DNA of 44,305 bases from Caldisericota bacterium (GTDB taxonomy: Bacteria > Caldisericota > Caldisericia > Caldisericales > Caldisericaceae): NCBI GenBank assembly GCA_034717215.1, contig JAYELD010000047.1, positions 1 through 44,305 of the forward strand, read 5' to 3'. Below, in pieces: positions 43,629-44,305 of the stretch (positions are counted from its first letter, which is position 1; each line of letters starts with the position of its first letter). A program made the position numbers and the translations under genes. The notes under the pieces were generated by a model, which did no database searches, had not been told where the DNA came from, and saw nothing but the letters and a program-made list of their open reading frames with translations.

Positions 43629-43715
43629 GGAGGGGTGGCCGAGCGGTTGATGGTACCGCACTTGAAATGCGGCAAGTGATGAGCTTCGGAGGTTCGAATC
43701 CTCTCCCCTCCGCCA
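43629..43715 (+). tRNA. tRNA-Ser (UGA anticodon)
   Basis: Acceptor stem GGAGGGG/CCCCTCC with discriminator G and encoded CCA. The anticodon stem CCGCA/TGCGG encloses loop CTTGAAA, anticodon TGA at 43663-43665, reading UCA-type serine codons. A long variable arm of the serine type and T-loop TTCGAAT are present. It directly follows serS, so synthetase and substrate tRNA may be cotranscribed. Confidence 0.96.
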
Positions 43716-43883
43716 ATGCATAGGATTAAAAAGATTATTTTGGAAATTTAATATAATATTTTAATTGTATTTTATCATTCCTAAAACAAAACTGTCATTT
43801 CAAGACCTGCCATTTTATTGTTTATCGAGTGATTCACACAAAACATTGCAATGCTCTTGATCTTTCTCTTTTATGTTCTTCTT

Positions 43884-43942
43884 TGTCATTCTGCTCTTTT
43901 CCTTGGCATGCATTACGCCAAGTCTGAAGTGAAGAATCTCTC
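43884..43942 (+). repeat. Nested-palindrome repeat, unit A
   Basis: TGTCATTCTG start, GAAGAATCTCTC end. Outer arms ATTCT/AGAAT; inner arms CTTGGC (43902-43907) and GCCAAG (43917-43922). Confidence 0.6.
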
Positions 43943-43977
43943 TTTTAGTCTTTTTTCTTTGTCATTCCGTTTTTCCC

Positions 43978-44016
43978 TGTCATTGCGAGCCTGCGTAAGC
44001 AGGTGAAGCAATCTCC
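43978..44016 (+). repeat. Nested-palindrome repeat, unit B
   Basis: TGTCATTGCGAG start, GAAGCAATCTCC end. Outer arms ATTGC/GCAAT; inner arms CCTGC/GCAGG around GTAA. It is the most canonical copy. Confidence 0.75.
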
Positions 44017-44073
44017 TCCTTAACAACGAAACAATTGTTTTATAAAAACAAAAATTTAAAGAAATATTACTAT

Positions 44074-44112
44074 GGGACTGCCGCGGCAACAAGTTGCCTC
44101 GCAGTGACAGGG
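44074..44112 (-). repeat. Nested-palindrome repeat, unit C, inverted
   Basis: Opposite orientation to the others: on the minus strand it begins CCCTGTCACTGCGAG. Outer arms ACTGC/GCAGT; inner arms GGCAAC/GTTGCC around AA. The outer stem has changed on both sides (A-T kept, T to C with A to G), a compensated substitution. Confidence 0.7.
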
Positions 44113-44114
44113 AG

Positions 44115-44151
44115 AGTCATTCTGATGGAGCGCAGCGACAGAAGAATCCCG
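44115..44151 (+). repeat. Nested-palindrome repeat, unit D
   Basis: GTCATTCTGA start, GAAGAATCCC end. Outer arms ATTCT/AGAAT; the inner part GGAGCGCAGCGACAG is only weakly paired. Confidence 0.65.
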
Positions 44152-44168
44152 TTTTCTCTTTTTTTCTT

Positions 44169-44197
44169 TGTCATTCTGAACTTGTTTCAGAATCTCT
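44169..44197 (+). repeat. Nested-palindrome repeat, unit E, short
   Basis: TTGTCATTCTGAA, then TTCAGAATCTC. Arms ATTCTGAA/TTCAGAAT (8 bp) around CTTGT, with no separate inner stem. Confidence 0.7.
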
Positions 44198-44262
44198 CAA
44201 AACAAATTTGGAAATATTTTGTAAAGGGATAGAATAGAGAAGAAAGAAGACAGGAGGCGAAA

Positions 44263-44305
44263 ATGATAAGCAGTGATTCTCATTTTTTTACGAACAAAGA
44301 AGGAG
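44263..44305 (+). CDS. Start of an unidentified protein gene, cut by the window edge
   Basis: ATG with a strong SD (AGGAGG at 44252-44257, 5 nt spacing), followed by 14 open codons (MISSDSHFFTNKEG). This is too little to assign a family. It lies just after the repeat cluster. Confidence 0.55.
   Translation, partial: MISSDSHFFTNKEG

Follow-up and report, generated by a model that had tools for sequence, protein, structure and literature searches.

Palindromic repeats of the CGTC type were defined by Di Nocera, De Gregorio and Rocco (2013; PMC3733652), who, in the sections of that paper available, also noted TGTC variants, equated the Neisserial dRS3 repeat and two Rickettsia repeats with CGTC REPs, and concluded that these lack a dedicated transposase; the string GIY is absent from the paper's text. 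As the same sections describe them, CGTC REPs are intergenic, occur in several phyla and consist of an unpaired tag (CGTC, with TGTC or CCTC as variants), a stem of 8-9 bp with an AT foot, a loop of 4-5 nt and a 3-nt tail, mostly CCA. dRS3, of which there are about 700 copies, is a short hairpin with a free middle and the conserved foot ATTCCC(N8)GGGAAT, and in NIME mosaics such hairpins alternate with linker repeats of 30-160 bp in intergenic arrays (PMC3898611, extracts). In REPIN/RAYT systems the replicating unit is a spaced inverted doublet of GTAG-tagged hairpins, found beside the gene of a small DNA-cutting enzyme, the Y1 transposase (Bertels and Rainey 2011, PMC3116915, extracts).

The window analysed here, 44,305 nt long, is one whole contig of the 1.49-Mb, 184-contig MAG of a Caldisericota bacterium. 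It holds five hairpin units, A to E, at 43884-44196, of which one, as the sequence-only reading had stated, is inverted (unit C, Table 1).

Table 1. Repeat units and neighbouring features in the window.
Feature	Position	Strand	Description
tRNA-Ser (TGA)	43629..43715	+	ARAGORN; upstream neighbour of the cluster, after serS
Composite block	43865..44269	+	unit order same as in the 90%-identical duplicate at G000:C146:2660-3053
Unit A	43884..43940	+	57 nt; rim TGTCATTCTG...AAGAATCTC around inner hairpin CTTGGC-ATGCATTAC-GCCAAG
Isolated 5' rim	43960..43969	+	TGTCATTCCG; truncated unit
Inverted pair	43978..44109	+	units B and C around an AT-rich linker; corresponds to the unit-GIY-YIG-unit cassette of G000:C148 without its gene
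Unit B	43978..44015	+	outer stem ATTGC/GCAAT, inner stem GCCTGC/GCAGGT
Linker	44016..44073	+	CTCCTTAACAACGAAACAATTGTTTT...AAAGAAATATTACTATGG, 58 nt, conserved in other copies
Unit C	44074..44109	-	inverted; outer stem ACTGC/GCAGT, inner stem GGCAAC/GTTGCC
Unit D	44115..44150	+	AGTC tag, outer stem ATTCT/AGAAT, weak inner stem, tail CCC
Unit E	44169..44196	+	TGTC, 8-bp stem, 5-nt loop, tail CTC; exact 28-mer in many phyla
Leader	44200..44262	+	promoter-like, with ribosome-binding site, outside the repeats; similar stretches precede unrelated genes
Gene start	44263..44305	+	truncated where the contig ends; the G012 relative, with an open frame of 945 aa, is helicase-like

The rims shared by the five units are looser than had been proposed. 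The strict form TGTCATT-NYG...RNAATCTC is matched only by B and E (2 in the 44-kb window against 0.02 expected), the tag being TGTC in A, B, C and E and AGTC in D, which ends in AATCCC, and C combining TGTCACT with AGTCCC. A finder based on rim plus stem returned four units in the window, all within 43884-44196 and with D missed; the same finder returned a mean of 1.35 units (maximum 4) in dinucleotide shuffles of the whole window and of 0.04 (maximum 1) in shuffles of 43716-44305 alone. The cluster at 43884-44196 is thus far beyond chance. The statement that outer stems pair in every copy (ATTCT/AGAAT, ATTGC/GCAAT, ACTGC/GCAGT) holds for 5/5 units, and the inner stems, described as different yet paired in A, B and C, do pair there and weakly also in D, with sequences unrelated between units; E forms one continuous 8-bp stem. 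Folding z-scores against mononucleotide shuffles were -2.1 for A, -4.0 for B, -1.6 for C, -0.9 for D and -3.75 for E, so that the folding of C and D is not significant taken alone. Compensated stem changes, likewise noted before, were recovered among 23 distinct 28-nt units of the E type, in which 92.4% of stem cells pair and 17 cells are doubly changed against a shuffled mean of 5.5 (0/500 shuffles as high), in a test limited by the gathering of most of these units with a pattern that fixes several positions.

Compared with the CGTC REPs described in the available sections of PMC3733652, the window units share the unpaired tag, the intergenic position and the spread over several phyla, and unit E fits the AT foot and the stem and loop lengths given there; in contrast, A to D are built in two tiers, an outer stem of only 5 bp and longer arms inside it, and a 3-nt tail is present but reads CTC or CCC rather than CCA. 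Short hairpins that keep their foot while the middle varies, and their alternation with a linker (related linkers occur in 22 copies), recall dRS3 and NIME as the extracts of PMC3898611 present them, although the feet differ (ATTCT, ATTGC and ACTGC in the window) and the linker is unrelated to the Neisserial one. The spaced inverted doublet B-C likewise recalls a REPIN (PMC3116915, extracts), with TGTC in place of GTAG.

Further copies, which the sequence-only reading had led us to expect, are present in the host genome (17 by the strict pattern and 40 by a looser one; reversed-pattern control, 0). With the looser pattern, 1 to 67 units were found per genome in 18/18 genomes of the host family, and 0 to 6 in each of 36 other genomes of the phylum, 19 of which have any. 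The exact 28-mer of unit E occurs in at least 119 stretches, and the taxa among the matches listed include Flavobacteriia, Gastranaerophilales, Caldiserica, Dehalococcoidia, Nitrospirota, WOR-3, Planctomycetota, several CPR groups, Spirochaetia, Ignavibacteriae and others, which bears out, for the unit E family, the statement that unrelated bacteria carry TGTCATTGCGAG-type elements. The 28-mer was found in no phage record and in two short viral contigs (L235, L236), both from one metagenome and possibly misassigned host DNA; 12 plasmid records match unit E imperfectly. The suggestion of an insertion hot spot behind the tRNA gene drew weak support: G012, of another genus of the same family, has a cluster there, and in three congeners of the host (G001, G003, G004) tRNA-Ser is followed directly by a coding frame, with no cluster.

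Comparison of the composite block with its duplicate on contig C146 of the host genome (G000) revealed that the foot of unit B is kept and the flanks agree, and that the inner arms are wholly different. The linker behind unit B recurs at 24 places in the fetched part of the host genome, and the left unit could be parsed in 22 of them; the window's own copy, which has one inserted base, lies outside these 22 and was identified separately. Across the 22 copies mean identity is 90% for the linker and 55% (0.546) for the inner arms, against 49% for shuffled arms, and 90 of the 119 copy pairs with linkers at least 92% identical have arms less than 60% identical. Since the linkers are near-identical and the arms near the shuffled level, inner arms have been exchanged beneath a constant foot and linker, an exchange that could alternatively reflect ordinary recombination between repeats. 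The inner module of unit A recurs elsewhere in the genome inside other outer stems (ACTGC, ATTTT), units nested in another's loop (L295, L297) resemble unit A, and at a site common to G000 and its congener G003 the flanks agree and the hairpins differ. A 232-bp composite of two units stands in tandem duplicate at L035:3740-4150. The MITE/REP-like character first proposed is supported by the dispersal of the copies, by inverted pairs whose linker is conserved, by a composite duplicated elsewhere in the genome and by arm swaps under conserved rims. Comparison of the sites at 0.4 and 18.1 kb of contig C148 with congeners yielded no clean empty site showing a target duplication: the former aligned poorly with G004, and the latter is a replacement, not an empty site, because G003 also has a unit there, with different arms.

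Two observations concern what follows the cluster. The duplicated block ends before different defence-like genes, the helicase-like one in the window and another at C146 (L040:3026-5056), which we take to resemble HsdM. A leader of the AAATTTGGAAATATTTTGTAAAGGGATAAAATA type (that of the window; L040, L100-L103, L114) precedes many unrelated genes in the genus, and the idea that the leader after unit E marks a defence-gene cassette was rejected on that ground.

A small GIY-YIG gene was first met twice on contig C148 of the host genome, with units beside both copies. On one side of these genes stands a unit followed by the linker start CTCCTTAACAACAAA, on the other the linker end ACTATGRGACTGC with an inverted unit, the two ends lying about 360 nt apart; in gene-less copies, the B-linker-C pair of the window included, the same linker ends stand about 60 nt apart. 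The cassette stands to the gene-less pair as an autonomous element does to a deletion derivative, or as a RAYT does to its REPIN. In 21 relatives, 28 matches to PF01541 were found, of which six are single-domain GIY-YIG genes, the rest being UvrC-sized or, in one case, a 276-aa frame, and units lie near all six when read by eye, degenerate units included. Five of the six aligned proteins were tested in a protein scan and all match PF01541 (E 1e-14 to 1e-18). Y8, Y19, G21, R28, R29, H33, E66 and N85 are invariant in the six, positions that we take to be the catalytic ones of GIY-YIG enzymes; judged from this fit, the small enzyme is probably active.

The association extends beyond the phylum. 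A unit lies within 200 bp on at least one side of 61/73 small GIY-YIG loci (46/53 and 15/20 in two sets), on both sides of 40/73 (29/53 and 11/20), and as an inverted pair, with the tags pointing away from the gene and the tails facing it, around 30/73 (22/53 and 8/20); these counts retain three loci whose gene ends were miscalled by script (L286, L291, L311). The set of 53 comprises 7 Caldisericota loci (of 10 matches, with degraded, cut and overlapping ones left out), 16 from a plasmid collection (of 32 records) and 30 from genomes picked for unit E's 28-mer, with units within 200 bp at 6/7, 13/16 and 27/30, respectively; the further 20 are good matches from the same unit-E-picked genomes, in which 41/50 have a small GIY-YIG match. 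A different GIY-YIG subfamily, represented by 20 weak matches from that genome set, had units at 0/20, both the strong and the weak sets being hand-picked from listed rows by score and absence of stops. Shuffled flanks gave 0/53, and UvrC genes 0/21, a control fair for the upstream side only because the 3' end of the gene often lies beyond the stretch. Among other ORFs in unit-picked stretches, 6/594 have units on both sides and 4/594 an inverted pair (Fisher test of the 30-locus set against these, 1e-20 and 8e-16). Upstream and downstream units of one locus are more similar to each other (0.80) than to units of other loci (0.63), and CCA-tailed units flank GIY-YIG genes in other bacteria. In N. 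gonorrhoeae, dRS3-like repeats surround a small GIY-YIG gene, as in the cassette described here.

Some loci have neighbours of their own. In Azospirillum and Shinella (L280, L289) a GIY-YIG gene with CGTC repeats lies between sufB and sufC, possibly a shared insertion site, and the two nucleases are 48% identical; in Planktothrix (L276) the gene sits between a type IIL restriction-modification gene and the DISARM gene drmA. A toxin-antitoxin-like gene pair (L238:330-1008; L323:819-1497) adjoins the G012 cassette and takes the cassette's place in G003.

The Ssn family of GIY-YIG single-strand nucleases, together with the Neisserial NTS repeat that they bind, is reportedly the subject of a Nature Communications paper of 2025, which is said to tie the small GIY-YIG protein to a repeat with hundreds of copies. 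A repeat of the Ssn type would have its cognate GIY-YIG gene in the same genome, with the repeat on its flanks, as is seen for the two genes of C148, and would be bound and cut by the nuclease in single-stranded form. Part of the nuclease-repeat link is therefore probably already in print; as far as the retrieved portions of the literature on GIY-YIG with palindromic repeats, REP or Neisseria go, no paper linking them was apparent.

Gene and repeat do not always coincide. There is no GIY-YIG gene inside the window, none near unit E copies in 121 stretches, and the 7 ORFs bracketed by units around those 121 loci included none recognised as a transposase by reading. With the strict finder an inverted pair was detected at 0/7 Caldisericota cassettes, where the pairs consist of degenerate units read by eye. 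Within the host family only 6/18 genomes have the GIY-YIG gene (two degraded or cut), against units in 18/18, and G007, 99% complete, has 39 units and lacks the gene. Enzyme loss after spread, missing contigs or the lack of any dedicated enzyme could account for this gap.

We consider it probable that the cluster is a REPIN/NIME-like mosaic of TGTC-tagged hairpins of the CGTC REP superfamily, spread by a homing-like GIY-YIG single-strand nuclease, and the small nuclease is likely the long-missing partner of these repeats. Its architecture would be that of two hairpins, B and C, in inverted order around a short linker, with extra units alongside, and the partner a stand-alone nuclease encoded between the same hairpins, which turn their tags away from the gene and their tails to it. 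The nuclease would recognise the constant foot of the hairpin on single-stranded DNA, namely the TGTC tag, the ATT..AAT stem base and the CTC tail, and would cut there; repair templated by another copy would then, in the manner of homing, convert or insert a hairpin. With recognition confined to the foot, the inner arms could be replaced by any others that still fold, so that the rims would stay constant while the inner stems, though paired, would be unrelated. B-linker-C and other gene-less inverted pairs would be non-autonomous derivatives of the unit-gene-unit cassette. Foot cutting with copy repair would account for the constancy of the feet, the freedom of the arms, the inverted pairs and the nesting of units alike. 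The features that place the units in the superfamily, their dispersal, their association with the gene, the linker ends common to cassette and pair, and the exchange of arms are seen in the sequences themselves; that the nuclease would cleave the units, that cutting would drive their spread and which strand it would use, we infer.

The partner suggested by the sequence-only reading was of the TnpA type, which would make the units REP elements that depend on a Y1 tyrosine transposase (RAYT) for their mobility. Spacer-separated inverted doublets do resemble REPINs (PMC3116915, extracts) and Y1_Tnp is present in 11/21 relatives; the units, however, lie at 0/17 Y1_Tnp loci by one pattern and within 200 bp of 1/17 by another, the copy-rich genomes G005, G006, G010 and G012 have no Y1_Tnp match, the tag is TGTC rather than GTAG, and CGTC repeats are described as not associated with transposase genes in the available sections of Di Nocera 2013 (PMC3733652), so that this proposal is already largely refuted and most improbable. 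We give as little weight to the units being chiefly landing sites for other elements, on the model of dRS3 as integration target of phage Nf1 (PMC3898611, extracts): a target role leaves their spread unexplained, and the unit E 28-mer is almost missing from viral contigs and phage records. That the units are intergenic, paired and compensatorily changed would also suit a role in RNA, as terminators or as stabilisers of mRNA kept for the shape of the hairpin, yet identical 28-mers across phyla, arm swaps, duplicated blocks and the bracketing of one gene family speak for mobile DNA and make this very unlikely as the primary explanation; units may still take on a function after insertion.

A more serious contender, though still an unlikely one, dispenses with a dedicated enzyme: replication template switching and ordinary recombination would copy and perfect the hairpins, and the GIY-YIG protein would merely use or tolerate them as targets, for example in modulating DNA uptake during transformation. 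Palindromes can be perfected by template switching in the absence of selection, the GIY-YIG gene is missing from many unit-rich genomes of the host family, and the composite at L035 stands in tandem duplicate. However, it leaves unexplained why one GIY-YIG subfamily is bracketed across phyla and another at 0/20 loci, and why cassette and gene-less pairs have linker ends in common.

Spread by the GIY-YIG nuclease, if true, would supply the missing mobiliser of the CGTC superfamily: when these repeats were described in 2013, no enzyme was named that mobilises them, and one gene family bracketed inversely across many phyla is a testable answer. More tentatively, and with rather less confidence than in the reading of this cluster, CGTC and TGTC REPs across bacteria may be the termini and gene-less remnants of a single class of mobile element, which would encode a GIY-YIG single-strand nuclease and no transposase and home into hairpin feet, its two-tier hairpins arising when arms are swapped or one hairpin inserts into the loop of another. 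The pattern of arm exchange would illustrate how a hairpin repeat can change inside while its recognised foot stays the same, and would join REP, NIME and homing-nuclease biology.
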